A stretch of 40,842 nt of DNA from Candidatus Stoquefichus sp. (GTDB lineage: Bacteria > Bacillota_I > Bacilli_A > Erysipelotrichales > Coprobacillaceae): contig JAETUM010000024.1 of assembly GCA_021768625.1 (NCBI GenBank), positions 1-40,842 on the forward strand, read 5' to 3'. Within the stretch, counting starts at the first letter, position 1. Each line of letters starts with the position of its first letter. The translations under genes and the position numbers were made by a program. Shown here in pieces: positions 176 through 28,855 of the stretch. A model generated the notes under the pieces. The model was given only the letters and a program-made list of their open reading frames with translations. It was not told where the DNA came from and ran no database searches.

Positions 176-3100
176 TTAATCTTCTTTTCTTTTATATGAG
201 AATGCAATGACAGCTATAAATAATGATGCAAATGCTAATGAAGCAAATTCTAAGATTGATGAATCATCACTTGTTCTGACTTTCTTCAATGCAGTTACTT
301 TTTGAATATCATCACCTTGAATATCAATATCAATTTTTCCATCACCATCTTTATCAAGATTGATATCAGCAATTCTATCACCATCTATATCAATATTAAG
401 ATCTGCTTTTCCATCGCCATCTGTATCAATATTAAGATTTGCTTTACCATCACCTGTTGTATCGATATTAAGATTCGCTTTACCATCGCCTGTTATATCA
501 ATGTTAAGATCTGCTTTTCCATCACCATCTGTATCAATGTTAAGATCTGCTTTTCCATCACCATCTGTATCAATATTAAGATCTGGTTTTCCGTCACCAT
601 CTTTATCAATATTAATATTTGGTTTAGTATCACCTAAGTCATTTGGCCACTTATCATCTAAATCATCTGGTTTTCCATCGCCATCTTCATCAACAATATT
701 GATATCTGGCTTTCCATCACCATCTGTGTCAATATTAATATCTGGTTTTCCGTCACCATCTTTATCAATGCTCACGTCTGGTTTGCCATCATCATCTGTA
801 TCTACATTAATATCTGGTTTTCCATCACCATCTTTATCAATATTCACATCTGGATCAATATCTTTTATATTTGGCCATTTATCATCTAAGTCATCTGGTT
901 TCCCATCACCGTCTTTATCAACAATATTGATATCTGGTTTTCCATCGCCATCTTTATCAATATTGATATCTGGATCTCCATCTTTATCTTTATCAATGTT
1001 GATATCTGGTTTTCCATCATCATCTGTATCTACATTAATATCTGGATCCCCATCACCATCTTTATCAATGTTGATATCTGGTTTTCCATCATCATCTGTA
1101 TCGATATTAATGTCTGGCTTTCCATCACCATCTTTATCAATGTTGATATCTGGTTTTCCATCATCATCTTTATCAATGTTCACATCTGGTTTCCCATCAT
1201 CATCTTTATCAATGTTCACATCTGGTTTCCCATCATCATCTGTATCGATATTAATGTCAGGTTTTCCATCATCATCTGTATCGATATTGATATCTGGTTT
1301 TCCATCATCATCTGTATCGATATTGATATCTGGTTTTCCATCATCATCTGTATCGATATTGATATCTGGTTTTCCATCGTCATCCTTATCAATATTGATG
1401 TCTGGCTCTCCATCATCATCTTTATCAATATTGATATCTGGTTTTCCATCATCATCTGTATCGATATTGATATCTGGTTTTCCATCGTCATCTTTATCAA
1501 TGTTCACATCTGGTTTTGGATTATCTTCTGGATCAATACCTGTATCTGGTTTCCCATCACCATCTTTGTCAACTATATTAATATCTGGTTTTCCATCATC
1601 ATCTGTATCAATATTAATATCTGGTTCATTATCACCATCTGTATCAATATTGATATCTGGTTTTCCATCACCATCTTTATCGATATTGATATCTGGTTTT
1701 CCATCGCCATCTGTATCAATATTAACTCTTACAAGATCATATGTAACAGTAAGTGTTGTCTTATAGTTATTAGATTTATCGTAAACAGTTGCTATAATTG
1801 TATATGTTGCTGCTTTAGATACATCAATTTCTTCTACTTCATTTCCATCTTTATCTTTAATAATAAACTCTTCAAGTTCTGTATCTACATGAGTATCTGA
1901 TTTAATATTAATAAAGTCATAACGTTCATTGAACATTTCTTTAAATTCATCTTTTGATACAATCTTTGGTTCTGAAGATACAGAATTTGTAATTGAATCT
2001 TTAGCATATCCATGAAGAATCTTAATATCTCCTTCTCCATCCTCAACTTCATAGTCATCAGGAACAATTGGATGATCCTCTTCTCCACCTGGTTTTGGTG
2101 TAGGAGGAGTTGCAAATGGGAATTCCTCTGGTGAAGTTTCTTCGACAATTGTTGCACGTTTTTCTGCTAAGTTATAGTTTGTTCCACCTAAATATTGTGC
2201 CTCCACTTGGAATGTTCCATCTGAAAGTTCGGGTATAGGATATTTTTTCAATTCTTCTTCATTTGTAAAGTCTATAAATAGGCGTGCAGTTGAATGTGCA
2301 TATTCATCGCTTCCTTCACTAGGTTGCGTAACTTCTTCAACATTAACTGGATTACCTACTTTAACACCATTAATATAAAATTGTACTTTTCCATCTGGTG
2401 CTGCACATGTCTTTGCTTCACCATCCCCTGGGAATACATTAGCAGTTAGTGTTATCGTTGCAAATTTAGTATGTTCATCATTTTGCCATGTTGATTCAGC
2501 CTTCAAATTTGTAATTTGGCTACTTGCTGGCGAAATAATTGACTCTAATGTTGTTTGATGTCCCCAGAAAGATTGATTAAATACTTCATCATCTTTAAAT
2601 TCATCATAGTTAACTGTAATTGTATATGTACCAGTTGTACTGATTTCACCTTTTGTACTTTCATCAGATGTTGCATTTCCAAACCAGTCTTTAATACGTA
2701 CTGATGAGAAGCCTAACTTATCTTCTTGATCAATTTTTTCATTCTTAGGCTCAGGTATGTCAATGTCTTGAGCTACAATTTCTTTAGCAAGAATGTCCAT
2801 ATCCCATCCAAGCCCATCATAAGTTTTATACAAGTATCCTTTAAGAGTATCAGAGAATTTATCTGTATCTACATTAAATGTTACCCATCTCTTTGTTGTA
2901 TCTCCAGTTCCTACTGAAGGTAATGAGAACGGATATTCTGCTTTAATAAGTGTTCCATCAGGTTTCATTAGTGTAACATTTGAAATACTTACACTCTTTC
3001 CTATTGAAGAAGTTGGTAACCAGAAATAAAGTGTTTGATCTTCTGCAACTTTATTTGCTAAACCATAATTAATGAAGTTACCAGCAGTATCAGATAATGG

Positions 3101-4483
3101 TTTACCATCAACTGTAACTGTAAAATCATAAATTCTATCTCCAACTTCTACATCTTCCATAGATCCAATAGCAATTTTAACCATTGTAAGGTTTGTACCA
3201 TCTGCACTAACTACTGAAGCACCAGTAATACCAGCTCCACCACTAGCACTAGCATTAGCACTATTTGTTGGATAGAATGAACCTCCTGTTACAATAACGT
3301 CTGCTTTTTGAGCTCCAACTCCATACCATCCAGATGAAGTTGCTTGTGGTAATAATGTTCCACCTGTAATTGTGATTTTATGAGATGCTCCAGATGTTCC
3401 ATGTCCTATATTATCTTTTTGTGAACATGCTCCGCCAAAAGCATTACCATGATCACGCCCAGTAGCTTTGACATATCCACCGTTAATTGTGATATCTCCT
3501 GTTGCAGTTGAACTATGTCCTACTCCTGCAACATCACCTGCATGCCAACCACCGCCAATTCCTGAACCATGGTAACTTGCATTGGCTTCAATCTCTCCAC
3601 CATTAATGATGATACCTCCACCATCAAGAAGACATCCAGCTCCACCATATGAACTTCCACCAATTCCAGAGCCACCACTCCAATTTTGGTTATTTCCATA
3701 AGGTGCAGAAGATATAATTTTACCACCATTAATAATAATAGCACCACTACTCTGCCCTGCTGCAGTACTACTTGTCGTTGCTTGACCACCAATTCCAGCA
3801 CTATAATATCCACCATAAACTGTTAAAGTTCCTGGATTATCACTATCCATTAGCCATGATGGTTTTTGAATGCCATTTTCATCTGTTTCTCCAACAATAC
3901 GTCCACCTTCAACATCTGCCCAGTTTCTTACGCCATCATCAATGATTAACTTTCCACCATAACATACATGAATACCTGCATGAGTTCCTGTTCCAGCATT
4001 CAATGTATTATTGCTGCCATCAGCAATAGTCAAATGTAATGTTGTAGGATCAGCGACTGTATTAGCTATAATATCAATAGGTGCAGCAGTTGTATTTGTA
4101 ATACTTACATTATTTAAAGTTATATCTGCTTTTGTTCCTTTTGTTATAGCAAGTGAACCTGTTGTTGTTGTTCCAGTAACAGTCACTGGTTTATTCGTAT
4201 TAATATAAAGAATTTTTCCACTTGAATAAACATCAAAATCTGCTGTTGTTCCATAAGTTAATGCACTACCATCATTTGTTGTCACCGTTAAGTTCTCAAA
4301 TGTACAAGATGCACTTCCATCAGCAAGAGGTTGTACATTATTTTCTTGTTTTGCATTTTCAGTTATTCCTTTTGTTGTTCCAAGATTATTCTCTTCTGCA
4401 TTGACAGAAAGAACATTTCCAAATGTAGAAACTAAAAGAAATGCACTGATTGTTAAAGCTGTTACTTTTCTTTGCTTTTTCAT
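176..4483 (-). CDS. Large secreted surface protein with glycine-rich N-terminal domain, Ig-like domains and about 36 Asp-rich tandem repeats
   Basis: This 1435-residue protein starts with a signal peptide (residues 1-30, ending VNAEE). Residues about 60-445 are Gly/Asn-rich with recurring INGG and GSGIGG motifs, as in Firmicutes carbohydrate-binding/beta-helix adhesin domains. Immunoglobulin-like beta domains follow to about residue 915. Residues about 919-1390 hold some 36 copies of a 12-residue unit, typically NIDTDDDGKPDI, with Asp at alternating positions as in thrombospondin-type-3 or EF-hand-like Ca2+ loops. Two linkers contain DDLDDKWPN. The tail has VRTSD, a hydrophobic segment and KRKED, a sortase-type signal without LPXTG. 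AAGGAGAAGAA lies just before the ATG. A role as a Ca2+-stiffened stalk presenting an adhesin head is inferred; the ligand is unknown. The inserted element lies 60 bp past its stop. Confidence 0.8.
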   Translation of the reverse strand: MKKQRKVTALTISAFLLVSTFGNVLSVNAEENNLGTTKGITENAKQENNVQPLADGSASCTFENLTVTTNDGSALTYGTTADFDVYSSGKILYINTNKPVTVTGTTTTGSLAITKGTKADITLNNVSITNTTAAPIDIIANTVADPTTLHLTIADGSNNTLNAGTGTHAGIHVCYGGKLIIDDGVRNWADVEGGRIVGETDENGIQKPSWLMDSDNPGTLTVYGGYYSAGIGGQATTSSTAAGQSSGAIIINGGKIISSAPYGNNQNWSGGSGIGGSSYGGAGCLLDGGGIIINGGEIEANASYHGSGIGGGWHAGDVAGVGHSSTATGDITINGGYVKATGRDHGNAFGGACSQKDNIGHGTSGASHKITITGGTLLPQATSSGWYGVGAQKADVIVTGGSFYPTNSANASASGGAGITGASVVSADGTNLTMVKIAIGSMEDVEVGDRIYDFTVTVDGKPLSDTAGNFINYGLANKVAEDQTLYFWLPTSSIGKSVSISNVTLMKPDGTLIKAEYPFSLPSVGTGDTTKRWVTFNVDTDKFSDTLKGYLYKTYDGLGWDMDILAKEIVAQDIDIPEPKNEKIDQEDKLGFSSVRIKDWFGNATSDESTKGEISTTGTYTITVNYDEFKDDEVFNQSFWGHQTTLESIISPASSQITNLKAESTWQNDEHTKFATITLTANVFPGDGEAKTCAAPDGKVQFYINGVKVGNPVNVEEVTQPSEGSDEYAHSTARLFIDFTNEEELKKYPIPELSDGTFQVEAQYLGGTNYNLAEKRATIVEETSPEEFPFATPPTPKPGGEEDHPIVPDDYEVEDGEGDIKILHGYAKDSITNSVSSEPKIVSKDEFKEMFNERYDFINIKSDTHVDTELEEFIIKDKDGNEVEEIDVSKAATYTIIATVYDKSNNYKTTLTVTYDLVRVNIDTDGDGKPDINIDKDGDGKPDINIDTDGDNEPDINIDTDDDGKPDINIVDKDGDGKPDTGIDPEDNPKPDVNIDKDDDGKPDINIDTDDDGKPDINIDKDDDGEPDINIDKDDDGKPDINIDTDDDGKPDINIDTDDDGKPDINIDTDDDGKPDINIDTDDDGKPDVNIDKDDDGKPDVNIDKDDDGKPDINIDKDGDGKPDINIDTDDDGKPDINIDKDGDGDPDINVDTDDDGKPDINIDKDKDGDPDINIDKDGDGKPDINIVDKDGDGKPDDLDDKWPNIKDIDPDVNIDKDGDGKPDINVDTDDDGKPDVSIDKDGDGKPDINIDTDGDGKPDINIVDEDGDGKPDDLDDKWPNDLGDTKPNINIDKDGDGKPDLNIDTDGDGKADLNIDTDGDGKADLNIDITGDGKANLNIDTTGDGKANLNIDTDGDGKADLNIDIDGDRIADINLDKDGDGKIDIDIQGDDIQKVTALKKVRTSDDSSILEFASLAFASLFIAVIAFSYKRKED
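312..1729 (-). repeat. 36-bp tandem coding repeat array
   Basis: About 1.4 kb of tandem repeats with a 36-bp period encode the Asp-rich units of the surface protein. Central units (about 1080-1500) are nearly identical at DNA level. Units near the 3' end of the gene (about 312-600) have diverged to GKADL and GKANL forms. Two longer units carry a DDLDDKWPN insert near 640-670 and 860-890. Such near-identity predicts copy-number change by slippage and possible assembly collapse. Confidence 0.95.
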
Positions 4484-9903: not shown

Positions 9904-10938
9904 ATGAAGAAATATAAAGTTGCTATTGTTGGTGCTACAGGAGCTGTAGGACGTGAAATGTTGAGATGCATTTTCCAATTTAACTTTCCTTTTGAAAGTT
10001 TAAAATTGTTAGCTTCTGCAAGAAGTGCAGGAAAGGTTATGGAATATGAAGGACATGAATTTGTTGTTGAAGAATTGACTGAAAATTCTTTTGATGATGT
10101 TGAAGTTGCTTTTTGGAGTGCTGGTGGAAGTATTTCAGAAAAATATATGCCATATGCTGTAAAAGCTGGATGTGTTAATATTGATAATACATCACACTTT
10201 AGAATGGATCCTGAAGTTCCATTAGTTGTTCCTGAAGTGAATGGTGAAGCTTTAAGAAATCATAAAGGAATTATTGCTAATCCAAACTGTACAACTATTC
10301 AAATGGTCAGTGCTTTAAATCGTTTAAATGAATATTTTGATATTGAAAGAATTATTGTTTCTACATATCAAGCAGTTTCTGGAGCAGGTGTTGCTGGTAT
10401 GGAAGAACTTTATAGACAATCTCAAGAAGTTTTAGATGGAAAAGAACCAGTTGCTAAAACATTACCATGTGCTTCTGATAAGAAACATTTCCCTATTGCT
10501 TTTAACTGTATACCTCAAGTTGATAAATTTGACTTAGATAATCATTTTACAAAAGAAGAAATGAAAATGGTTAATGAAACAAAGAAAATCTTTAATAAAG
10601 ATATCAAAGTCAATGCAACATGTGTGCGTGTACCAGTATTAAGAGGACATAGTGAATCTGTTTATATCGAAACAAAGAAACCTATTGATATGGATAAAGT
10701 TTTCGATTTATTATCACATTCACATGGTGTTGAATTATATGATGATATTGAAAATCAAGTTTATCCAATGGCTAACTTATTTATTGGTGATGAATTGGTT
10801 CATGTTGGACGTGTAAGAAAAGACTTAGATAACGATCATGCTTTAAGCTTATGGGTTGTTGCTGATCAATTAATGAAAGGTGCTGCTTATAACTCTGTAG
10901 ATATTGGTCTAAAGATGATTGAGATGGGATTACTTTAA
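9904..10938 (+). CDS. asd: Aspartate-semialdehyde dehydrogenase
   Basis: Converts aspartyl phosphate to aspartate semialdehyde with NADPH, supplying hom and lysine/peptidoglycan precursor synthesis. The NADP-binding GATGAVGREM starts at residue 10. The active-site Cys129 is in NPNCTT, and the substrate-binding RVPVLRGHSE lies in the C-terminal half. The length of 344 residues is normal. GGGAGG precedes the ATG. It is the last gene of the operon and is followed directly by a strong terminator. With hom and lysC it provides the complete route from aspartate to homoserine. Confidence 0.95.
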   Translation: MKKYKVAIVGATGAVGREMLRCIFQFNFPFESLKLLASARSAGKVMEYEGHEFVVEELTENSFDDVEVAFWSAGGSISEKYMPYAVKAGCVNIDNTSHFRMDPEVPLVVPEVNGEALRNHKGIIANPNCTTIQMVSALNRLNEYFDIERIIVSTYQAVSGAGVAGMEELYRQSQEVLDGKEPVAKTLPCASDKKHFPIAFNCIPQVDKFDLDNHFTKEEMKMVNETKKIFNKDIKVNATCVRVPVLRGHSESVYIETKKPIDMDKVFDLLSHSHGVELYDDIENQVYPMANLFIGDELVHVGRVRKDLDNDHALSLWVVADQLMKGAAYNSVDIGLKMIEMGLL

Positions 10939-10948
10939 TAAATATTAT

Positions 10949-10982
10949 AAACCTTTGCTAAATAAGCAAAGGTTTATTTTAA
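10949..10982 (+). terminator. Terminator of the hom-lysC-asd operon
   Basis: An 11-bp perfect stem, AAACCTTTGCT (10949-10959) with AGCAAAGGTTT (10965-10975), is followed by a T-rich stretch. It overlaps by two bases the stop codon of the convergent minus-strand gene ending at 10974. The reverse strand has a poorer U-tract, so it mainly serves asd. Confidence 0.88.
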
Positions 10983-11540
10983 TTCTCCATAATATTGATA
11001 ATCTTTACTAGAAATAATAATTCTTTTCTTAATAACTTCTTTACCTTTTTTCTTTCCTCGAATAATGATTTCTGTATTATTTTTAACTTCAAAATATAAT
11101 GTTTTATTTTCAAAAAGTTTATAATAACTTCCTAGCTTATCAACAACTCCATTATCCTGATTCCAATTTAATATTTCTCCATGAGTCATTTCTATATCTA
11201 AGTAATCAATATTTGAATCTTTTTCAAAATAAATAGGAAAACCCGGAACAGAAGACATAGCTTGATTATACTTTGTTAACTGAAATTTTATATTGTCTTC
11301 TATTTTTTGCTTCTTCATACTTTGATCTGTATAAGCATAAACGTTAAAAGAAACATTTTGATATGTCTGTTGATGAAATGCAAATAGCATAAAAACAAAG
11401 CATGTTGCACATATTGGAACCCATATAAATTTTGTAATCTTTTTTGTTTTATTTTCTAATGTTTGACACAATACATAATTATAGATTTCATCTTTATTTA
11501 TTTTTTCTTCAAAAATATTCTTTATTGTTTTTTTTGACAT
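10974..11540 (-). CDS. Probable anti-sigma factor (single-pass membrane protein)
   Basis: A 188-residue protein from the ATG at 11540, one nucleotide after the sigma gene stop (TAA-A-ATG), so translation is probably coupled. An upstream in-frame GTG at 11555 lies inside the sigma gene. Residues about 1-40 form a short charged cytoplasmic region. A single hydrophobic segment, IWVPICATCFVFMLFAF, follows, then about 125 residues outside the membrane with no family I recognise. The topology and position directly after an ECF sigma gene are typical of anti-sigma factors that sequester the sigma until an envelope signal arrives. No zinc-finger HxxxCxxC motif is visible, so the assignment rests on context. 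Confidence 0.6.
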   Translation of the reverse strand: MSKKTIKNIFEEKINKDEIYNYVLCQTLENKTKKITKFIWVPICATCFVFMLFAFHQQTYQNVSFNVYAYTDQSMKKQKIEDNIKFQLTKYNQAMSSVPGFPIYFEKDSNIDYLDIEMTHGEILNWNQDNGVVDKLGSYYKLFENKTLYFEVKNNTEIIIRGKKKGKEVIKKRIIISSKDYQYYGELK

Positions 11541-11541
11541 T

Positions 11542-12060
11542 TTATTGATTCTCACTTTCTAAATAGGCTTTTAATTCTTTTAAGGTTCTATAAAGATGAT
11601 TTTTAACATTTGATTCACTAATATTTAATTCATTTGATATTTCTTGAAGAGATAAACCCAAATAATAATAAAGATAAAATATCTGAGATATAATGACTTT
11701 CTTTGTTTTCAAGTATTTCCATACAATCTCTACATCGTAATGAACAGAAAAACTTCTTTCTATATCTATATCAGATGGAATATCTGCAATAATATCTTTA
11801 TCTTCTTTTTCAAATAAAAGCTTTATTCTTTTTTTATAATGAAATCGATAATAATCTTTTACTTTATTTTTAGCTATAGCCATAATATAAGCTTCATTAT
11901 CAATTTGAGAAATATTTTTTAAAACATCTAAATAAATATTTTGTAATATATCTTTAACATCTTCAATATAAGAGCAATGACAAACAACATACTTTGAAAT
12001 ATCTCGATATGAATTATCATATAATTCATCAAATCTTTTTAAATCATCTTGGTTAACCAT
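11542..12060 (-). CDS. ECF-type (sigma-70 family) RNA polymerase sigma factor
   Basis: The chosen ATG at 12060 has AGGTGA 5 nt upstream and gives 172 residues starting MVNQDDLKRFDELY. A longer frame from a TTG runs back into the terminator hairpin of the permease and is rejected. Region 2 spans about residues 10-75 (DVKDILQNIYLDVLKNI and AIAKNKVKDYYRFHYKKR). Region 4 near the end has the helix-turn-helix LSLQEISNELNISESNVKNHLYRTLKELKAYL. Regions 1 and 3 are absent, which defines the ECF group. A sigma-W-like promoter directly upstream suggests autoregulation, and the anti-sigma candidate follows immediately. Confidence 0.85.
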   Translation of the reverse strand: MVNQDDLKRFDELYDNSYRDISKYVVCHCSYIEDVKDILQNIYLDVLKNISQIDNEAYIMAIAKNKVKDYYRFHYKKRIKLLFEKEDKDIIADIPSDIDIERSFSVHYDVEIVWKYLKTKKVIISQIFYLYYYLGLSLQEISNELNISESNVKNHLYRTLKELKAYLESENQ

Positions 12061-12079
12061 TATATTCACCTCACTTTCT

Positions 12080-12107
12080 ATATCGTAAAAAGCATAAAAA
12101 AGTTTCA
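12080..12107 (-). promoter_or_regulatory. Sigma-W-like ECF promoter of the sigma gene
   Basis: TGAAAC (12107-12102), a 16-bp spacer and CGATAT (12085-12080) on the minus strand. The Bacillus sigma-W consensus is TGAAAC-16-CGTATA, so only the -10 deviates slightly. The predicted start is near 12073, just before the ribosome site. Confidence 0.65.
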
Positions 12108-12114
12108 AATTTAT

Positions 12115-12141
12115 AAAAAGACTTGGAGAAAACCCCAAGTC
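12115..12141 (-). terminator. Terminator of the ABC transporter operon
   Basis: A perfect 7-bp stem GACTTGG with CCAAGTC (12141-12135 and 12126-12120 in transcript order) and loop GGTTTTCT is followed by TTTTTATAAATTT. It lies 6 bp past the permease stop and separates the transporter from the sigma gene. Confidence 0.88.
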
Positions 12142-16653: not shown

Positions 16654-17649
16654 TTATAACACATCTTGATAAAGAGTTGCCATTTTCTCTATTTTTCTTT
16701 GAACCTCCTCTTTTAATGATATAGGAGATATAACTTTTATATTATCTTGTAACATCAAAATCCATCCTATAAGTCCTTCCGATATAGAAACATCAGGGAT
16801 AGTGATGAAATATTGATTTTGGTATAACTTTTTTGCTTCTATATTCATTCCAAAACGAGACACAATTTCTCTTAATAACTTTTGGTGACATTCAATTTGT
16901 AATGTATCTTTAATTTGTGTACTGTACATGTTTGTCATTTTCTCTATTTCTTTATTCATATCAAATTGTTCTCTCATCTCTATAAATAGACCTTGTGTAG
17001 TCATAATTTGTCTCATACGATCTATACGGTATATAGATAATTCGTTTTTATACTTTTGATTATATCCAACTAAATAATAATGATTATTATGTAAAACAAT
17101 CTGGTATGGAGAGATGATATATTGTTGGCCTTGATTGCCATTTTGTGATGCAACTTCTTTTAAATGATTATCTTCAACTTCATAATTAACATATTGAAAA
17201 GAAACAAGACACTTTCTTTCAATGGCTTTTATAAGAGTTGATATATTTAAAATAAGAGAGAATGATTGTTGTTTGTTTTGTGGATGAAAGCTTACTAAGC
17301 GTTCTCTTTGTTGATAGGAAGATAAAGAATCTAATTTTTCTTTTAATTTTAACTTATCCTCATATTTGAGGTCCTCATGAAATGCAATACTATCTAATAA
17401 AAATTGTAACTCTCCATCTAAAAAGAATTCGTTTTCTATTTTATAACCTACTCTATGTATAGATATAATCATATCTTTTTTTATCCAAGGATTAAAAAAA
17501 CTATTTAATTGTTTAATACATGAATACACAGATTTTATATCAATATATATATTATAATTTTTTAACTCTTTTAAAATATCTTTTGCACTTATTGCCTTAC
17601 CATTATTTTCTTGAATAATCTTTAAAATATAATACATTCTTTCTCCCAT
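16654..17649 (-). CDS. WYL-domain transcriptional regulator
   Basis: A 331-residue cytoplasmic regulator. Residues about 1-70 form a winged helix (MYYILKIIQENNGKAISAKDILKEL type). The middle contains a WYL domain: VSFQYVNYEV, then YIISPYQIVLHNNHYYLVGYN and ELSIYRIDRM, the conserved strands and Arg that sense a ligand or nucleic acid. The C-terminal 80 residues resemble the WCX extension. TAGGAGA precedes the ATG. Its stop codon overlaps the upstream in-frame ATG of the response regulator by one base, so the two are on one transcript. It follows an unknown 198-residue protein after 9 nt. The ligand and targets are unknown. Confidence 0.85.
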   Translation of the reverse strand: MGERMYYILKIIQENNGKAISAKDILKELKNYNIYIDIKSVYSCIKQLNSFFNPWIKKDMIISIHRVGYKIENEFFLDGELQFLLDSIAFHEDLKYEDKLKLKEKLDSLSSYQQRERLVSFHPQNKQQSFSLILNISTLIKAIERKCLVSFQYVNYEVEDNHLKEVASQNGNQGQQYIISPYQIVLHNNHYYLVGYNQKYKNELSIYRIDRMRQIMTTQGLFIEMREQFDMNKEIEKMTNMYSTQIKDTLQIECHQKLLREIVSRFGMNIEAKKLYQNQYFITIPDVSISEGLIGWILMLQDNIKVISPISLKEEVQRKIEKMATLYQDVL

Positions 17650-18399: not shown

Positions 18400-20250
18400 T
18401 TATTTAACTTTAACAGATTTTACCTTTGTATAAGAACCATAATACTTCTTTCCTGCAACTGTCTTATAAGCTCTTACTTTCACATAATATGTTTTCTTAC
18501 TTGTTAATTTTTTAATTGTCTTAGATGCCCCTGTAAGTGTTACTTTCTTAAATCCTTTTGTTTTGCTTGTTGAATAAGCTATTTCATAACCAGTTGCTCC
18601 TGTAGACTTTTTATACTTAATAGTTGCAGATTTTTTACCTGCTTTCACTGTCAATGAAGTTGGTGCTTTAGGAACAATATAGAAATAAGCTTGCTTTGTT
18701 CCTTTATATTTTCCCTTACCAGTTATTGTTATTGTTGCTTTTCCAGTTTTTATATTGTTTTTATATGAAACAGTATAATCTGTATTTTTCTTTAATGTCG
18801 TATTACCATACTTAACTGTTATTGCTGGCTTTAAAGCTTTTCCTGTATAAGTTACATTTTTCACAGTAACCTTTGTTTTAGACATATCATACATTTTAAC
18901 AAGTTTAAAGCTATACTTTTTAGCATACTTCTCTGCAGCAGATCCATCATATGCTTGAACCGTAAATCCTGTTATTTTTTGATTACTTGTACTACTCTTA
19001 TATTTATAACCAAAAGCAATATTTCCTATTGTTGTTACACTCTTAGGTATTGTGACACTTTTTAAGTTATCACAATTATAAAACGCTTGTTTCCCTATCT
19101 TTGTAACTGTTGAAGGAATTGTTACACTTTTCAAGTTTTTATATCCAAAGAAAGCATTATCCCCAATACTTGTTATTCCACTACCAATAACGACCTTTTC
19201 AGCTTTTAAATTTTTCCATGGTGCTAATTTTAAATTAGATTGTGTTGTAATAAAGTTTGGCATACTTCCTTTACCAGTCAATTTTAATGTTTTTGTTCCA
19301 TTATTATATGACCATTGAATATTACTTCCACATTTACCTGTAATAACTAAATCACTATCAGTATATTTATAATCAGTTGTACTGATATTATAAGATTTAT
19401 ATTCATCAGGTAAATGTTGTAAATATTCTGAATTCACTCTAATAACATGATCCTTAAAGTTATTACTTCCTTTTAAATAATATTGGAAATTATATGGTGT
19501 ATTAAACGAATCCCATGTAACATCTAAGTTATAATATTTATTACCTAATTTAACAATATTCCATCCATGTTCATAAGTTTTTGCTACTTTTGTTGCATCA
19601 CCCTTAACAAAACGACAATCAACACCAGCCTCTAAAGCCAATCTATAAAACAATGTTGCAAAACCTTGGCATACGGCCTTTTGATTAATTAATGCTCCAT
19701 ATGTTGATTTCTTAATATCACTTGTTTTATCAACTGTATCATCAAAAGTAACATGATTACAAATATAATGATAGATAGTTCTTACTTTTACATAATCACT
19801 TTTTCCACTCAAATTCATTTCTTTTAATACACTTTTTACTTTTGTATCAACAGTATTTTCTTGTGCTTTTGTTGTTCTGTATTTTATTTTAAAGGTATAA
19901 GTAGGATTTGTTTCCCCTGCTTTATATTCACCTGATGCTCCCCATGAAATATGATTCCAAATCAAATAATCTCCTTCATTAGGAACACCTGTATGCTTAA
20001 CGGCTTCCTTAAATATCTTCTTCAATAAATCAGTTTCCAAATTATTTTTATTATATTTAATCTCAACAGTTGTTTGACGATTAACCATACATTTACGTAA
20101 ATATGCTCCTGCCTCTGCTGGTGTTGTATAGACTTTGTCACTTGTAGCAGTTGCTTGACTTATATTATCATTCACTGTCACAGCATTAACATTAACAATA
20201 GTTGATGTGACTAACATTATGAGAACAAATATACTTAATAATTTTTTCAT
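18400..20250 (-). CDS. Secreted transglutaminase-like protein with BspA-type leucine-rich repeats and fibronectin-like C-terminus
   Basis: A 616-residue exported protein with a signal peptide (residues 1-23). A transglutaminase/protease-like core follows with its triad Cys194 (KAVCQGF), His228 (YEHGWN) and Asp243 (NLDVTWDS). Next comes GSNIQWSYNNGTKTLKLTG and two to three BspA-type LRR units (ITSIGDNAFFGYKNLKSVTI, TKIGKQAFYNCDNLKSVTI). A beta domain (KNVTYTGKALKPAITVKYG) and a Lys-rich fibronectin-III-like end close it. No sorting signal or transmembrane anchor is visible, so it is secreted or held by charge. The family may cross-link or cleave peptides at the surface; the substrate is unknown. 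It has a consensus promoter and a strong terminator, so it is monocistronic. Confidence 0.85.
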   Translation of the reverse strand: MKKLLSIFVLIMLVTSTIVNVNAVTVNDNISQATATSDKVYTTPAEAGAYLRKCMVNRQTTVEIKYNKNNLETDLLKKIFKEAVKHTGVPNEGDYLIWNHISWGASGEYKAGETNPTYTFKIKYRTTKAQENTVDTKVKSVLKEMNLSGKSDYVKVRTIYHYICNHVTFDDTVDKTSDIKKSTYGALINQKAVCQGFATLFYRLALEAGVDCRFVKGDATKVAKTYEHGWNIVKLGNKYYNLDVTWDSFNTPYNFQYYLKGSNNFKDHVIRVNSEYLQHLPDEYKSYNISTTDYKYTDSDLVITGKCGSNIQWSYNNGTKTLKLTGKGSMPNFITTQSNLKLAPWKNLKAEKVVIGSGITSIGDNAFFGYKNLKSVTIPSTVTKIGKQAFYNCDNLKSVTIPKSVTTIGNIAFGYKYKSSTSNQKITGFTVQAYDGSAAEKYAKKYSFKLVKMYDMSKTKVTVKNVTYTGKALKPAITVKYGNTTLKKNTDYTVSYKNNIKTGKATITITGKGKYKGTKQAYFYIVPKAPTSLTVKAGKKSATIKYKKSTGATGYEIAYSTSKTKGFKKVTLTGASKTIKKLTSKKTYYVKVRAYKTVAGKKYYGSYTKVKSVKVK

Positions 20251-20288
20251 AATAATTTCCCACCCTTACATGTTATATTACATTTTAA

Positions 20289-20317
20289 ATTATATGCAAA
20301 ATAATATTTTATGTCAA
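20289..20317 (-). promoter_or_regulatory. Consensus promoter of the transglutaminase-domain gene
   Basis: TTGACA (20317-20312), 17 bp, TATAAT (20294-20289) on the minus strand, a full consensus match. Confidence 0.85.
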
Positions 20318-20339
20318 CAATTGAGACTTCAATATTTAT

Positions 20340-20386
20340 TAAAAAAAGCTATAACAATTAAAGCTAAGCTCTAATCGTTATAACTT
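20340..20386 (-). terminator. Terminator of the muramidase/coiled-coil operon
   Basis: A 19-bp stem with several G-U pairs joins 20386-20368 to 20364-20346 through a 3-nt loop and is followed by a run of U. It starts 4 nt past the stop codon of the small coiled-coil gene. Confidence 0.9.
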
Positions 20387-20389
20387 CTT

Positions 20390-20665
20390 TTATTCATCTT
20401 CTAATTGTTTTTTCAATTCTTCGATCTTCGCATTGTAATCAGAAATCTGGCTACGCATTTCAGCGACTTCTTCATTAATAGAATTTTCATCCTCTATTAA
20501 CTTGAAATAATATTTTCCTAATTCTCTATAAACATCATCTCTATCGCTTTCAACATTTTTAATCTTCAATTTAATTTTTGCATTACCAGCAAATTCTTGA
20601 GTTTTATCAATAGCACCTTCTGTTAACTTGGCTGCTTTCTTTGTAATATCATCAAATAAAGCCAT
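20390..20665 (-). CDS. Small coiled-coil protein
   Basis: A 91-residue protein from the ATG at 20665, where AAGGAGG lies 8 nt upstream; an in-frame GTG at 20674 lies inside that ribosome site. It starts MALFDDITKKAAKLTEGAIDKTQEF, an amphipathic Lys/Ala helix, and ends in a heptad-like region (EEVAEMRSQISDYNAKIEELKKQLEDE). It has no Cys or membrane segment. Similar short coiled-coil proteins often carry a C-terminal zinc ribbon, which is absent here. It starts 15 nt after the muramidase stop, so the two are cotranscribed. No specific function can be assigned. Confidence 0.75.
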   Translation of the reverse strand: MALFDDITKKAAKLTEGAIDKTQEFAGNAKIKLKIKNVESDRDDVYRELGKYYFKLIEDENSINEEVAEMRSQISDYNAKIEELKKQLEDE

Positions 20666-20680
20666 CTTCTTCACCTCCTT

Positions 20681-22735
20681 CTATTTATAATAATAATCCA
20701 TATCTAAATATGTACTTGATACTCCAGGTACATCCTTAAATGTATTGCCCACTTGCCACATTTGTCCATGCATTGTTTTTTGAACACAATCCCAATAAAA
20801 TGTTGGATTTCCTCCAGGCTTGTTATAACGTGCATACCACAAACGTTTTCCAAATGTTTGATAATAATATTTTCTATCCAAATAATTTTCATACCAACTT
20901 TTATTAGCATAAATACTTATATACTTGGTAGAAATTCCTAATTCATTTAATCGTTTTACAAAAGCTTTTGTAATGTTTTCTATTTCTGATGTTTTTAATT
21001 TTCTCTGTTTACTATCTTCTAAATCGTAATAAATTGGAAATGTAAACTTTTTTGTTCCTGGTTTTATTCCAGCTTTCTTTAGTTGACTATATAATCTATT
21101 TGCATCTCCTCTAGCTTCCTTTACATTTAAAGCTTCTGAATACCAATAAACGCCATATGATAAATCATTGTCTTGACATTCTTGAGTATTTTCAACAAAC
21201 CGAGTATCTAACTCTAATCCATGTCCTGCACGTAAAATAACATAATCCATTCCTGTATCCTTCAATTTTTTACCCGATATTTTCCCTTGATATTTAGAAA
21301 TATCACAGCCTACAAGAACTTGAGGATTATCTTTCACTTGAACATAAAATGATTTCTTTACAGTATCTTTACCACATTTTGCTGTTACTGTTATTTTTGC
21401 TTTTCCTTGTGACACTGGCATTATAATACCATTTTCACTATCCACTTTACAAATAGATTGATTATTTGAAGAAAAAGATAACTTTGTTCCCTTAACAACA
21501 TCTTTGACTATCTTTTCAGTTGTTCCTACAGTTGCAGAAGTCAAACCACTTCTTAAACGTAATGGGGAAAAATCAACTGAAAGACTTTTCCTTATAATTT
21601 TCTGACGACTATCTTTTATTTCTGCATAAAATACATAATTATCAAATTTCTTAGGAACAAATGTACATGTTTGCTTCTTAGAAAAATCTTGAATAATATG
21701 AACTTTCCCATCTTTCTTATATGAAAAACGTGTGAGAAGTGTTCCTATATTTCCATGAGACTGTGTAGATAATTTAACTTTTTTCAAAGTTAAAGATGAT
21801 GAAAAGTTAGATTTAAACTTATCTAATTTCAAAGTAGGGGTGTATACATTGATTTTAGTAGATGTCTCTTTTATACTTCCTCTACTATCTTTTACTTTTA
21901 CATAAAATATATATTCTCCATTTTGATTAAGTCGTATTGATAAAGAAGAATGAGATGAGTAATCTCTAACTATATATGTTTTTCCGTTATATTGATATGA
22001 AAACTTATATCTTTTTGAACCTACTCCTCCATCTGTAGAGGCTTTTAATTGAACAAGATCATGAATCACAACTTTCTTAGAATTTGTTTTTAAAGATAAT
22101 GATAATGACTTTATCTTTACAGAAACTTTTTGACTTGTTGTTTTTGTTTTTTTCTTACTATCTCGACTTGTTACAAAGAATTGATACACACCTGCATATT
22201 TAGGTTTAAAATAAACTGTTTTTTTATTTGAATAATTTTGAATAGTATATTTTTTTCCATTATATTTATATGTAAATTTAAATAGCTTTGTGCCTGCTCC
22301 TCCAGTTGTTTTAGCTGATAGCTGGATATTTTGATCTACATATTTTCCTTTAGTAGATAATGATATTGTATAAGGGTTAACTACTTTAACTGTTCTTTTT
22401 TTAGAAATTGTTGTCTTTTTATCTCTTACATAAACATAAAATTGATATGTTCCTGTTTTTTTAGGTTTAAATGATACACTCTTTGATTTTGAATAATTTC
22501 TTAAAGTATACATTTTATTTTTATACTTATATCTAAATTTATATGTCTTTGTTCCTTTTCCACCACTTGCTTTTGCAACTAATTGTATTGTTTTTCCTTT
22601 TTGTGAAGTTGATCCACAGTTAATTGATAAAGCCTGTATTTTTAATGATATAGCATAAACTTCTTTATAAGAAAACATAGATAACATCATGCATGATACA
22701 ATTGTAGCAATTAGTAATGTTTTCAGTTTTCTCAT
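20681..22735 (-). CDS. Secreted GH25 muramidase with four N-terminal repeats and a Big2-like domain
   Basis: A 684-residue exported protein with a signal peptide (residues 1-28). Four repeats of about 88 residues follow, each with a GGxGTKxYKFxYKYNGKxY-like core, then NYS and FYVxVRDS. A Big2-type domain lies at about 390-470. The C-terminal 210 residues are a glycoside hydrolase family 25 lysozyme: VGCDISKYQG at its start and FPIYYDLED carrying the catalytic Asp and Glu. GH25 enzymes cleave the MurNAc-GlcNAc bond of peptidoglycan. The basic repeats probably bind cell wall. GAGGTGA precedes the ATG. A TATAAT at 22759-22764 is the probable -10. Confidence 0.9.
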   Translation of the reverse strand: MRKLKTLLIATIVSCMMLSMFSYKEVYAISLKIQALSINCGSTSQKGKTIQLVAKASGGKGTKTYKFRYKYKNKMYTLRNYSKSKSVSFKPKKTGTYQFYVYVRDKKTTISKKRTVKVVNPYTISLSTKGKYVDQNIQLSAKTTGGAGTKLFKFTYKYNGKKYTIQNYSNKKTVYFKPKYAGVYQFFVTSRDSKKKTKTTSQKVSVKIKSLSLSLKTNSKKVVIHDLVQLKASTDGGVGSKRYKFSYQYNGKTYIVRDYSSHSSLSIRLNQNGEYIFYVKVKDSRGSIKETSTKINVYTPTLKLDKFKSNFSSSLTLKKVKLSTQSHGNIGTLLTRFSYKKDGKVHIIQDFSKKQTCTFVPKKFDNYVFYAEIKDSRQKIIRKSLSVDFSPLRLRSGLTSATVGTTEKIVKDVVKGTKLSFSSNNQSICKVDSENGIIMPVSQGKAKITVTAKCGKDTVKKSFYVQVKDNPQVLVGCDISKYQGKISGKKLKDTGMDYVILRAGHGLELDTRFVENTQECQDNDLSYGVYWYSEALNVKEARGDANRLYSQLKKAGIKPGTKKFTFPIYYDLEDSKQRKLKTSEIENITKAFVKRLNELGISTKYISIYANKSWYENYLDRKYYYQTFGKRLWYARYNKPGGNPTFYWDCVQKTMHGQMWQVGNTFKDVPGVSSTYLDMDYYYK

Positions 22736-22782
22736 AATATTTCACCTCATTAAACTATATTATATCACATCTTTTTCATAAT

Positions 22783-22805
22783 AAAAAGCAGGATATCTAT
22801 CCTGC
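22783..22805 (-). terminator. Terminator of the DegV-family gene
   Basis: GCAGGATA-GA-TATCCTGC is a perfect hairpin at 22805-22788 followed by TTTTTATT. It contains the TAG stop codon of the upstream gene (22799-22797). Confidence 0.9.
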
Positions 22806-23660
22806 ATATTTACGTATATATTGAATCCCAATACCTCCTACACCCATATGTGCTCCAACAACAGCGGGAAGTTCTCTTAATTCCATTTCAATATTTCCAA
22901 TTTTTTCTAGAACTAACTCTTTCAACATAAGTGCTGATTCCTCACATAGTACATGCTCAATTGTAATTTTATAATCTTTAAAGTTGACACCTTTTTCAAT
23001 CATTCTGTCCACAAGTGTGAGTCTTGCTTTTGTAGCTGTTCTTACCTTTGCTAAAGTATCAATTTTTCCTCCTAGATCATAATTTAATTCCATAACAGGA
23101 ACAATTTTTAGCATTCCTGCTAATAAAGCAACTGCTGGTGTAATTCTTCCACCTTTTTTTAAATGATCTAAGTTAGGAGCCATAATAATTGTCCCAGAAT
23201 CTTCAACCATTTTTCTCAAAATTGTAACAACATCTTCTGGTGATTTCCCACCACTGAGTAATTTTGCAGCAATAAAAGTTAAATATTTATGATTGCCTGC
23301 TGTTCCTTTTGTATCAACTAAAGTTATAGGTATATCTACCATATCTGCAGCAACTTTCATCCCATTTAATGTAGATGACAATCCTGTTGCTATAGGAAGT
23401 CCTATAATTTCATCGTATCCTAAATCTTTAATTTTTTGAATAGTTTCAACTAATACCCCCGTTGAAGGTTGTGATGTTTTCACTGTCAAATTCTCTTTTT
23501 CCATTTTTTCAAATACTTCGATACTTGTTATTTCTTTTTGATCCAAATATGTTTTATCATTCATTGTTATACATAATGGGACAATAAAAATTCCTTGATC
23601 TTCATATTTTTCTAATTCAATTTGACACCCACTATCCGACAATATAGCAACTTTTTTCAT
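22797..23660 (-). CDS. DegV-family fatty-acid-binding protein
   Basis: Taking the ATG at 23660, with GGAGGG 8 nt upstream, the protein has 287 residues starting MKKVAILSDSGCQI. The longer frame runs back over the promoter. DegV hallmarks are the N-terminal SDSG, the VKTSQPSTG segment whose residues contact the fatty-acid carboxylate, GLSSTLNG, and LDHLKKGGRI. Family members bind one fatty acid in a cleft between two alpha/beta lobes. Some (FakB) present fatty acids to the kinase FakA, which is not in this window. It is transcribed divergently from the YigZ-like gene through overlapping promoters. Confidence 0.92.
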   Translation of the reverse strand: MKKVAILSDSGCQIELEKYEDQGIFIVPLCITMNDKTYLDQKEITSIEVFEKMEKENLTVKTSQPSTGVLVETIQKIKDLGYDEIIGLPIATGLSSTLNGMKVAADMVDIPITLVDTKGTAGNHKYLTFIAAKLLSGGKSPEDVVTILRKMVEDSGTIIMAPNLDHLKKGGRITPAVALLAGMLKIVPVMELNYDLGGKIDTLAKVRTATKARLTLVDRMIEKGVNFKDYKITIEHVLCEESALMLKELVLEKIGNIEMELRELPAVVGAHMGVGGIGIQYIRKYAG

Positions 23661-23682
23661 TTCACAATCCCTCCTCCACATT

Positions 23683-23711
23683 ATTATAAAACAATAATGT
23701 TCTTTTGACAA
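23683..23711 (-). promoter_or_regulatory. Promoter of the DegV-family gene
   Basis: TTGTCA (23711-23706), 17 bp, TATAAT (23688-23683) on the minus strand. The -35 hexamer overlaps the -35 of the divergent promoter by five bases. Confidence 0.8.
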
Positions 23712-23734
23712 CCAAAGCTATTTATATATATAAT
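23705..23734 (+). promoter_or_regulatory. Promoter of the YigZ/IMPACT gene
   Basis: TTGACA (23705-23710), 18 bp, TATAAT (23729-23734). The predicted start lies near 23741, next to the ribosome site. Confidence 0.8.
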
Positions 23735-23755
23735 AAAGATGAAAGGAAGATGAAA

Positions 23756-24352
23756 ATGATATCAGTAAAAGATATAACAAAACATACAATTGTTATTAAA
23801 AAGTCGGAATTTGTCTGTCATCTTATTCCTTGTAGTAGTATAGAAAAAGTTAAAGAAATTATTCAACAATATAGTGATCCCCAAGCATCACATAACTGTG
23901 TTGCTTATATTATTGGTCCTCATGAAAGAGCTAATGATGATGGAGAACCATCGCAAACAGCTGGTATGCCTATGTTAAATGTGTTAAAAATGCAAGGTCT
24001 TACAAATATTATTGCAATAGTAACTCGTTATTTTGGTGGGATTAAATTAGGTGCTGGTGGTTTAACAAGAGCATATACACAAAGTGTTGCTGAAACTTTA
24101 AAAAAAGCAGAAATTGTTGAAAAGGAATTAGTCAATCTTTATCAAATTGATATTGATTATTCTTTTATAAGAAAGTTTGAACATTTATTAAAGCAACATA
24201 ACATAAAATGTATTAATCAAGAATATAATGAACAAGTCTCATACCATTGCTATATAAGAGATACTTATTTCTTAACACTTATTCAAGAACTTACAAGCAA
24301 TCAATTTTCATATAAAATTATAGGACAAGAATATATTGAAAAAGAGAATTGA
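23756..24352 (+). CDS. YigZ/IMPACT (UPF0029) family protein
   Basis: The ATG at 23756 is chosen because AAAGGA lies 8 nt upstream; ATG 23750 is too close, and earlier in-frame codons fall in the promoter. The protein has 199 residues. The N-terminal domain has SEFVCHLIPCSS, SHNCVAYIIG, NDDGEPSQTAGMPML and the signature RYFGGIKLGAGGLTRAY of the UPF0029/IMPACT fold. The remaining 80 residues match the ferredoxin-like C-terminal domain of bacterial YigZ. Eukaryotic IMPACT regulates translation through Gcn1; the bacterial role is not settled. Its stop codon TGA lies inside the -35 box of the mntP promoter. Confidence 0.92.
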   Translation: MISVKDITKHTIVIKKSEFVCHLIPCSSIEKVKEIIQQYSDPQASHNCVAYIIGPHERANDDGEPSQTAGMPMLNVLKMQGLTNIIAIVTRYFGGIKLGAGGLTRAYTQSVAETLKKAEIVEKELVNLYQIDIDYSFIRKFEHLLKQHNIKCINQEYNEQVSYHCYIRDTYFLTLIQELTSNQFSYKIIGQEYIEKEN

Positions 24353-24377
24353 CATCAATTTATAAGATTGTTATAAT
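24349..24377 (+). promoter_or_regulatory. Consensus promoter of the Mn2+ riboswitch-mntP unit
   Basis: TTGACA (24349-24354), 17 bp, TATAAT (24372-24377). The -35 box overlaps the stop codon of the preceding gene. Confidence 0.9.
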
Positions 24378-24384
24378 GCTAATA

Positions 24385-24503
24385 TGATAAGGGAGTAGTT
24401 AGCACTTATGTGTAGTCATGTCAACACATCGATAAACTTTTATCTGGCACGATTTTAAATGATGAGACTTGTCTGTGATATACCACAGCCATGTCTTTTT
24501 TTA
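24385..24503 (+). ncRNA. yybP-ykoY Mn2+ riboswitch with terminator
   Basis: The leader carries the conserved blocks of the yybP-ykoY class: AAGGGAGTAG (24389-24398), then CATGTCAACACATCGAT and TTATCTGGCACG near 24417-24452. An imperfect stem, CTGTG with CACAG plus flanking pairs (about 24476-24495), is followed by a run of T and forms the expression platform. In this class Mn2+ binding prevents termination and turns on Mn2+ export. The downstream gene is mntP, the classic target. Confidence 0.9.
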
Positions 24504-24518
24504 TGAGGAGGATTAAAG

Positions 24519-25082
24519 ATGAGCTTTTTAGAAATTCTACTTATTGGCGTAGGTCTTGCAATGGATGCTTTTGCTGTAAGTATTTGTAAAGGATTATCTA
24601 CAAGAAAATTAGAGTGGAAACACGCTATTATTTGTGGTGGTTACTTTGGAGTATTCCAGGCTCTTATGCCTTTTATTGGTTATATTTTAGGTATTCAGTT
24701 TAAAGATAAAATAGAGAGTATTGACCATTGGATTGCTTTTATTTTATTAGCACTGATTGGACTGAATATGATTAAAGAAGCTTTTGGAGAAGAAGATGAT
24801 TGTAATCCTGATTTTTCTTTTAAAGCTATGATTCCTCTTGCTATAGCAACTTCTATTGATGCTCTTGCTATTGGTGTTACTTTTGCATTTTTAAATGTTA
24901 ATATTTTATATGCAATTATCATTATTGGAATAACTACATGTTTTATTTCTATGATTGGTGTTAAAATTGGTCATGCCTTTGGTGTAAGATATAAGTCTAA
25001 AGCCGAGATTGTTGGTGGAGTTATTCTTATTTTAATGGGATTAAAGATATTATTAGAACATCTTGAAATTCTTATTTTATAA
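24519..25082 (+). CDS. mntP: Manganese efflux pump MntP
   Basis: A 187-residue membrane protein with six predicted helices made of two related halves of three. Each half carries the conserved Asp motif: [17 protein letters not shown] (Asp16) and [14 protein letters not shown]. These define the MntP (DUF204) family, which exports Mn2+ from the cytoplasm. AGGAGG precedes the ATG at the usual spacing. The upstream Mn2+ riboswitch independently supports the function: high Mn2+ should permit read-through and expression. Confidence 0.95.
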
Positions 25083-25134
25083 AATTCAAATTCAATTCAT
25101 ATAGTTGTCTATAATAATAGATGAGGTGATTATA

Positions 25135-25587
25135 ATGAATAATGTTTCTAAACTTTATGAAGTTTACATAAACAAAGAACTTCAAACAACAAAAAATGAG
25201 ATTTTAAATGTACAAAGACTTAATCAAAAAATACTTTCTTTTTTACATGATTTAGGTCAAATATCCGAAGATTCTCGATGTTACCTATTTTGGGAAAAGA
25301 ATGAACCCATTAATCATCAACAATTATTAGAAGATTATCTTGAAGGATTAACAATGTTAATGTCAATTGGTTTTGAATTAAGAATTGATTCTATTAAAAA
25401 TCATACAGAGATTCCTTATCCTACTGATATACATTCACTTTTCTTTAAAATTTATCATTCTATTTTAAAGGTACAAGGTCACTATTCTAGCGATGATTAT
25501 CAAAATACTATTGATGATTATTTTACTCTTGGATTTCAATTAGGTATTCAAGTCGACGAAATCATTTCCAATTATCAAAACGATTAG
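25135..25587 (+). CDS. Degenerate or short dimeric-dUTPase-like (dUTPase_2/MazG-type) helical protein
   Basis: AGGTGA lies 5 nt before the ATG at 25135, giving 150 residues. The core LGQISEDSRCYLFW, then QQLLEDYLEGLTMLMSIGFEL and a late YFTLGFQLGIQVDEIISNY, follow the pattern I know from all-helical dimeric dUTPases: E-x-x-E before RCFKFW, LLEEYVDxLHFxLSLGxEL, then LGFTxEEIxxxY. Two differences stand out. The first motif has Gln where a metal-binding Glu is expected, and the chain stops just where the KNxxNxxRQ segment should follow. It may be a non-catalytic relative. It lies 52 nt after mntP, and a functional link is not evident. Family assignment is from memory of the pattern. Confidence 0.6.
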   Translation: MNNVSKLYEVYINKELQTTKNEILNVQRLNQKILSFLHDLGQISEDSRCYLFWEKNEPINHQQLLEDYLEGLTMLMSIGFELRIDSIKNHTEIPYPTDIHSLFFKIYHSILKVQGHYSSDDYQNTIDDYFTLGFQLGIQVDEIISNYQND

Positions 25588-25593
25588 ATAAAA

Positions 25594-25627
25594 AGAACTT
25601 CTAAATGCTGAAGTTCTCTTTATTTTA
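25594..25627 (+). terminator. Terminator after the dUTPase-like gene
   Basis: AGAACTTC (25594-25601) and GAAGTTCT (25610-25617) form a perfect 8-bp stem followed by CTTTATTTT. It lies 6 nt past the stop codon. Confidence 0.85.
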
Positions 25628-25655
25628 CTCAATTTATATTCCATATAATTACTAA

Positions 25656-25687
25656 AAGAGAAATAGACATGAAACCCTATTTCTCTT
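25656..25687 (-). terminator. Hairpin downstream of the GH16 gene
   Basis: AAGAGAAATAG (25656-25666) and CTATTTCTCTT (25677-25687) form a perfect 11-bp stem with a 10-nt loop, between convergent genes and about 25 bp past the minus-strand stop. In the minus sense it is followed by TTAG, so the U-tract is weak. Confidence 0.65.
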
Positions 25688-25711
25688 ATTTCTATATATC
25701 ATATAATATAA

Positions 25712-28700: not shown

Positions 28701-28855
28701 AGTTCTTCTGAACTCGTCTGACCTCTATCAAGCTCAATTAAATCATATTCAGTATCTACAGTATTAGCTGCAGCCACATGGAATACATTACCCATAATTA
28801 AACTTGACATCAGTAATAATGAGAGCATCATCTTAGTTTTTCTTTGTTTTCCCAT
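25712..28855 (-). CDS. Cell-wall-anchored GH16 beta-glucanase (laminarinase-like) with two CBM4/9-type modules and FIVAR repeats
   Basis: A 1047-residue surface enzyme. After a signal peptide (1-30) come two related carbohydrate-binding modules (about 52-198 and 203-352), each starting with LVTDGDFEKG or LIANGNFENG and ending YIDNVSIKE. The GH16 domain (about 367-640) has the catalytic EIDIME at 496-501. The family hydrolyses beta-1,3 or mixed-linkage glucans; laminarin-type activity is likeliest. Beta domains and two helical FIVAR-like repeats (about 900-1000) follow. The Pro-rich spacer, VKTSD, hydrophobic segment and KREQ tail form a sortase-type signal. AAAGGGGA precedes the ATG. A cre site overlaps the promoter region. 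Confidence 0.9.
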   Translation of the reverse strand: MGKQRKTKMMLSLLLMSSLIMGNVFHVAAANTVDTEYDLIELDRGQTSSEELVTDGDFEKGGSSWNQGKDKSIASGVSYGDGTRSGMLPSNNGNSYIGQIVNVTPNKEYTIKAYIKTNADDAKVNLCVRGGTNAQLQANTGTVLLDKKYGGNDWTPVEVTFNSGSYSSILISLVKWEEDTSSNAYRNAAYIDNVSIKEAKPELIANGNFENGNNSWRTVGTAVVSNNMWDGEYIAYEGQYYGMLPSQTSNASLYQTLELKANTTYKVKAKVAVQTGGEVIFAVKSPDLSSHYSGGAIEKKVEGTGLEWIDFEYEFTTRTQTSVGVAFIKWSDTNSGSVYNGQVYIDNVSLKEVSKDTEEPKDDNYNIIWADDFNDTKLDNSKWGYELGSIRGVEQQHYTNSEENVFMRDGKLVLKATDRALEDQYKNPRGNRQVIYDSGSVRTHGKYEFLYGRIEMKAKLPKGKGVFPAFWTLGADFVLDGRIDSKQGYGWARCGEIDIMELTGTESGSGNRTVWQTIHTDDGLSEDNGKLAGQGYTISEDFYNDYHIFGINWSENKVEWYVDDQIVCTADYSDTSIAKNRIAQKALNRPQYIQMNLAMGGNWPGDAGTNLAGTEFVIDYVYYARNNEQQAAADAYYASAPQLNGLKNITMTEGDTPDLLKGVTTSNDYFVDYSVENEPMFTNVGGCTSVDLLCHGKDDIDSLANLPVGTYNIHYSAIPNNVEYKSNNVPDGTKDYKFARRTMTLTVEERKFPTEYELKGKKGETLSTITLPEGWSWQNGQVVLNNDNEKHNVVHESGKVVEVNVQVRDFSKLNDLVDEAKEKLMNQADYVLSTIDELKTVLSQAEELLNTYPEQNQITAMESLLQDKINDLQLLADKTQLKALYDEVKEYDESKYTTDSWEVFSKALNDAKAILDKEAATQDEVEKSLLELQDAIKGLKEKSEDVVPDKPTNPEQPDEPNVPETPTQPGDNEEKPQQPVITPTDPDDKINGDVLGDEVDTTHKKNTTVSPKVTQNVKTSDATLIAPYAILSVCAIGMYMVISKREQ

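Follow-up and report, generated by a model that had tools for sequence, protein, structure and literature searches.

The window (the whole 40,842-nt stretch of DNA that was analysed) carries on its reverse strand a gene for an ECF-type sigma factor and, directly behind it, a gene for a one-helix protein of 188 aa. Both lie where the original prediction had placed them. The features of this unit are as follows, with coordinates in the window.

12120-12141, reverse strand: terminator-like hairpin (9 pairs, then TTTTT) between a Bce-like permease gene and the sigma promoter
12080-12107, reverse strand: ECF-type self-promoter (predicted), -35 TGAAAC(TTTT), 16 nt spacer, -10 CGAT(AT)
12066-12074, reverse strand: ribosome-binding site within AGTGAGGTG, assigned by sequence
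11542-12060, reverse strand: ECF-type sigma factor gene, 172 aa, ATG at 12060, assigned by ORF and family matches
10974-11540, reverse strand: putative anti-sigma factor gene, 188 aa, assigned by ORF, helix and structure model
10947-10977, both strands: terminator-like hairpin between the anti-sigma gene and the convergent gene at 9904-10938, which we take by its sequence to be asd-like

The sigma protein has the conserved domains TIGR02937 (sigma70-ECF; 67.8 bits, cut-off 42.9) and Sigma70_r4_2 (Pfam; E-value: 9e-12, above its cut-off). Sigma70_r2 aligns at residues 14-72 with 20.8 bits, below the cut-off of 24. Searches beyond bacterial genomes returned little: no PDB sequence matched at E 0.001, IMG/VR gave one weak partial match and a phage search gave weak matches in four records (22-43% identity). 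The sigma stop codon (TAA, 11544-11542) and the partner ATG (from 11540) are 1 nt apart with no terminator between them, so to judge from the sequence the two genes are very likely transcribed together. Because terminator-like hairpins lie on both flanks, the unit is taken to be two genes long.

A BceRSAB-like module adjoins the pair, and a two-layer envelope-stress response had been proposed from this placement. That the pair forms a second layer of a peptide-antibiotic response with this module is improbable. The genes are on the same strand, with 87 nt from the permease stop to the sigma ATG, and two other family loci have ABC transporter genes beside them (a regulator, an ABC protein, a membrane protein and a kinase directly behind the pair in L004, and an ABC gene in L013). 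However, a terminator-like hairpin and the unit's own promoter separate the permease from the sigma gene, and for the ABC proteins the identity is only 28-29% in L004 and L013. The window permease has no tblastn match (E 1e-3) in any of 32 relatives' loci, nor in six longer stretches that surround loci encoding the window's type of ectodomain; as the 32 loci are mostly short, reaching 6 kb on both sides in six only, a Bce module further away would have escaped this search. The window's Bce-like ABC protein has weak tblastn matches in L004, L013 and L117, as do its regulator and kinase in L004, and in the longer stretch of L136, at 4.6 kb behind the pair, there is an ABC gene with 41% identity to that of the window. 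The Bce module appears to be a chance neighbour. A gene for a WYL-domain regulator (16654-17649) lies directly upstream of the Bce-like response regulator.

The sequence TGAAACTTTTTTATGCTTTTTACGATAT is found at 12107-12080, 19 nt before the sigma ATG. Relatives of the sigma factor were collected by scanning 84,980 species, each represented by one genome, which gave 14 loci (47-57% identity), and further genome searches added more. Nearly all relatives have T-rich DNA, GRAACTTTT, a gap of 16-17 nt and CRAC or CGAT, then a common leader (GTGAGGTG or similar) directly before the ATG; the ribosome-binding site is kept in most, at roughly equal distance from the -10. A strict motif (GRAACTTT-N12..14-CRAY) is present in 21 of 26 distinct family upstream regions, that of the window being counted, whereas dinucleotide shuffles average 0.015 of 26. 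A looser motif occurs in 24 of 26 (shuffles: 0.3). These 26 are what is left of 31 tabled regions after removal of five near-duplicates; the table does not include L014, which lacks upstream sequence, or L120, whose sigma gene is not intact. L122 and L023 lack both motifs, and L123, L127 and L131 lack the strict one only. Among 155 ORFs in the loci of 26 relatives (at least 100 aa, ATG start, 150 nt upstream present), 16 have the strict motif within 150 nt, all of them family sigma genes; in the window it precedes one of 28 ORFs, again the sigma gene. This confinement to family sigma genes is a signature of self-regulation, and the footprint bears out the proposal that the sigma factor is predicted to drive its own gene. 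About 55% of ECFs are self-regulated (PMC8103513, excerpt).

The promoter had been described as sigma-W-like, which holds for the -35 (TGAAAC) and the 16-17 nt spacing and fails for the -10. The sigma-W consensus is printed as TGAAAC-N16,17-CGTA (PMC2375139, excerpt), and ECF promoters as having AAC in the -35 and CGT in the -10 (PMC8103513, excerpt). The window has AAC and CG at these places but CGAT rather than CGT or CGTA, and its relatives mostly have CGAC, CAAC or GAAC. A housekeeping sigma-A promoter (TTGAAA ... TATAAT), or mere chance, is a highly improbable source of the motif. TTGAAA is similar to TTGACA, and TATAAT follows CGAC in several relatives, yet the distance between the two elements (about 22 nt) is too long, several relatives have TTGGAAC, the kept letters (GRAAC and CRAY at 16-17 nt) have ECF geometry and a promoter scan gives no sigma-70-type site starting there; the shuffle average speaks against chance. 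The sigma family now has an exactly testable promoter.

The scan of the genome for TGAAAC-N16-CGATAT that had been suggested as a way to define a regulon returned a single exact site in 2.92 Mb, namely 12107-12080, and no wider regulon came to light. The pattern TGRAAC-N16-CGAY has 11 sites in this genome, against nine for the reversed pattern, and the ten sites other than the self-promoter are all inside ORFs, two of which are short (60-64 aa). The family consensus with up to two mismatches has 16 sites with a 16-nt gap (19 reversed) and nine with a 17-nt gap (39 reversed). Apart from the self-promoter these make 24 sites; ORFs of at least 60 aa contain 23 of them, and the one free site has no ORF behind it. 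Three motif searches in sets of 20, 19 and 19 genomes gave 29 distinct matches, comprising 15 family sigma self-promoters and 14 sites inside ORFs. Across the 2.92 Mb, the exact motif, TGRAAC-N16-CGAY and the family consensus with a 16- or 17-nt gap thus gave no second target promoter, and the output of the sigma factor is for this reason missing from the present picture. A wider sigma-W-like regulon whose promoters diverge further from the self-promoter is a possibility of some weight, if a doubtful one. An ECF sigma factor without an output hardly makes sense, and the -10 varies within the family (CGAC, CGAT, CAAC, GAAC), so that targets could vary too; against this stand the near-equal or lower counts relative to the reversed patterns and the position of almost all other sites inside ORFs.

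The partner protein consists of a predicted cytoplasmic segment (residues 1-37), a hydrophobic helix (residues 38-55) and an ectodomain (about 60-188). There is no second helix, in agreement with the single membrane helix first proposed. A one-helix protein follows the sigma gene in the family loci that extend past that gene, and this conservation, together with the promoter footprint across relatives, supports the reading of the two genes as a sigma/anti-sigma pair, with the anti-sigma role putative. The cytoplasmic segments of 25 of 26 partners fit a loose pattern, which was drawn up after seeing the sequences; L012 does not fit. When a profile of the partners of the window and L080 (its closest relative, described below) is aligned with the partner in genome G066, only residues 1-64 of the profile align. 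The cytoplasmic segment is thus common to partners with unlike ectodomains, as would be expected of a segment that binds the sigma factor and can be joined to different sensors.

Class I anti-sigma domains have the zinc motif Hx3Cx2C. This motif is found in none of the 26 cytoplasmic segments, so the case for inhibition by the partner would rest on synteny and architecture; the 188-aa protein itself is compatible with a class I domain lacking zinc. It is unlikely that this protein merely shares the operon as a membrane protein without inhibiting the sigma factor. The missing zinc motif and the lack of any Pfam or NCBIfam family above cut-off would fit such a role, whereas the cytoplasmic segment is conserved alongside the sigma family even where the ectodomain differs, and the L123 partner (1501-1701; 66 aa) retains just the cytoplasmic segment and helix, with no ectodomain. 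An AMP-ligase-like gene, named by its sequence, lies behind this short partner.

The pair closest to that of the window is L080 in genome G203 (sigma 58% identity; partner 38% over its whole length). The same partner type is encoded at L116, L117, L118 (near-identical to L116), L119 and the decayed L120 (1525-2022; no intact sigma gene or partner start). L116-L120 come from the order to which G203 belongs; in that order, 16 of 385 genomes have any match. In intact loci the window's ectodomain is always encoded downstream of a family sigma gene, and the motif MSSVPG.PI is invariant in the seven aligned partner rows. In a BLAST search limited to ectodomains, those of the window, L080, L116, L117 and L119 match one another (40-78%) and nothing else. 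The search of 196 relatives found no window-type partner beyond the window's own genome, apart from one weak match inside a kinase-like ORF. Partner matches occur in four of 395 class genomes and two of 392 phylum genomes, own genome included, and none of those in other genomes is full-length. The partner has no match in plasmids, in IMG/VR or in PDB sequences (profile search, E 1). PADLOC gave no match at E 0.01.

A larger ectodomain type is found in L002-L008, L010, L012-L015, L019, L023, L126 and L131, and weakly in L122 and L124. In L126 a third gene behind the pair (2169-3176) looks like a tandem duplication of this RseB-like ectodomain, and L013 (988-1532) is a decaying copy with its sigma gene split over two frames. 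The ectodomains of L088 and L127 match neither type. A grouping of these two as one further type was rejected, as their outside parts have no mutual match at E 0.01; for the same reason an AU test on that grouping (p 0.0005) is given no weight as proof of sensor exchange. For the ectodomain types searched, Pfam and NCBIfam yield no family above cut-off, the best match of the window partner being DUF3139 (E-value: 7e-4, below its cut-off). The original description of the outside domain as unassignable therefore stands, yet the domain is not a singleton.

Structure prediction, which had been recommended for the ectodomain, gave an all-beta model and left its fold family unassigned. The model of the window partner has a helix at residues 16-54 and an all-beta ectodomain (mean pLDDT 66, with blocks of 80-90 over residues 101-170). 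With Foldseek, neither PDB nor the viral models gave a match at E 0.001. The best VIA value is for arginine deiminase domains (Z 7.2, rmsd 3.4, 113 residues), and GbpA and others match as well; because such Z values are within what unrelated folds give, the modelled ectodomain is assigned no family beyond "all-beta". The other type gives an alpha/beta model (mean pLDDT 80), which aligns with the C-terminal domain of RseB (VIA Z 8.2, rmsd 3.6, 91 residues; Foldseek E 0.17) and with MucB (VIA Z 7.1, rmsd 3.8, 93 residues). As modelled, its nearest solved structures would be RseB and MucB, at the edge of significance (Z 7.0-8.2).

Several known systems resemble this unit. Like sigma-W/RsiW of Bacillus subtilis (PMC2375139 and PMC8103513, excerpts), it combines a membrane anti-sigma factor (putative here) with self-regulation (predicted here). 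It differs from sigma-W/RsiW in the -10, in the partner, which has no zinc motif, and in that no regulon was found; furthermore, no sigma-W model is among the 25 NCBIfam matches listed for the sigma protein. Sigma-V/RsiV of Bacillus is likewise an ECF sigma factor with a membrane anti-sigma factor, and as the RsiV ectodomain is a receptor (PMC4183432, excerpt), the outside domain here could be the receptor itself. Unlike RsiV, the partner has a profile that matches no PDB chain at E 1. SigI belongs to a different sigma family from that of the window. In SigI/RsgI of Clostridium thermocellum, one sigma/anti-sigma scaffold is likewise combined with several outside sensors, which read growth substrates (PMC12203970, excerpt). 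RseB and MucB are periplasmic regulators of RseA and MucA in sigma-E-type pathways. Their likeness is to the alpha/beta ectodomain type and not to the all-beta one of the window, and they are separate proteins, whereas the domain here is part of the anti-sigma factor; the Z values are at the edge of those for unrelated folds. No paper on the sigma family itself was found among open-licence papers.

The two genes very probably form one transcription unit encoding a membrane-gated ECF sigma factor that is predicted to be self-promoted and inhibited by its partner. The proposed model, in which we infer promoter recognition, inhibition, partner orientation and proteolytic release, is as follows. 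The sigma factor would transcribe its own promoter (GAAACTTTT / CGAT), creating positive feedback. It would be kept inactive by the co-transcribed single-pass partner through the cytoplasmic N-terminal segment of about 37 residues. The small all-beta ectodomain would act as a sensor of something outside the cell, and a signal there would free the sigma factor; stepwise proteolysis, known from other membrane-bound anti-sigma factors, is the probable route. Membrane anti-sigma factors are the commonest form of ECF control and proteolysis is the usual means of release (PMC8103513, excerpt). The design of the unit is ordinary; the sensor is new. With its ligand, the MSSVPG.PI ectodomain would add a new input to ECF signalling.

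In the sigma tree, L116-L119, which have the window's ectodomain type, lie beside L088 with its different ectodomain (94/95), and L127 lies inside a group (100/98) whose other members have the RseB-like ectodomain. The placement of the window and L080 lacks resolution, and a single clade for the window's ectodomain type is not rejected (p 0.14). These positions suggest sensor exchange among the partners of the family, which looks like a natural sensor-swap set on one sigma scaffold and would be useful for the study of anti-sigma sensor evolution and for orthogonal switches. Three genomes have two systems each, with different -10 boxes: G203 (L009 and L080; CGAC/CGAT), G821 (L119 and L131; CAAC/GAAC) and G197 (L003 and L127; CGAC/GAAC). 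These differences could insulate the paired systems from each other.

At four loci, the pair or its remnant has a serine recombinase gene no more than about 8 kb away.

L133, 6587-8371: serine recombinase gene
L135, 5892-7676: serine recombinase gene
L003, 1125-2942: serine recombinase gene
L138, 475-1194: serine recombinase gene

The Pfam domains Resolvase and Recombinase are present in the three that were scored; L133 and L135 are near-identical, and of these two just the gene of L133 was scored. Other genomes of family f1 in the searched set have no sigma match better than 1e-9. This absence and the nearby recombinases make horizontal spread plausible. A bolder reading, which we consider unlikely as a whole, is that of a mobile, self-contained cassette in which an ECF sigma factor with only its own promoter has spread between Bacilli lineages beside recombinases, its anti-sigma sensor swapped like a plug, so that each copy would read another signal and the genes that follow in the operon would be the output.

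Behind the pairs of L007 (7228-8609) and L014 (989-3959) are genes for a DUF4358-like lipoprotein (scored in L007 only, slightly below cut-off) and an MBOAT acyltransferase, joined in L014 by a DHHW protein; a cell-surface acylation output is possible at these two loci. In the window, surface or wall proteins are encoded at 18400-28855, with transglutaminase and BspA-type repeats, GH25 and Y_Y_Y, and GH16 and FIVAR domains.
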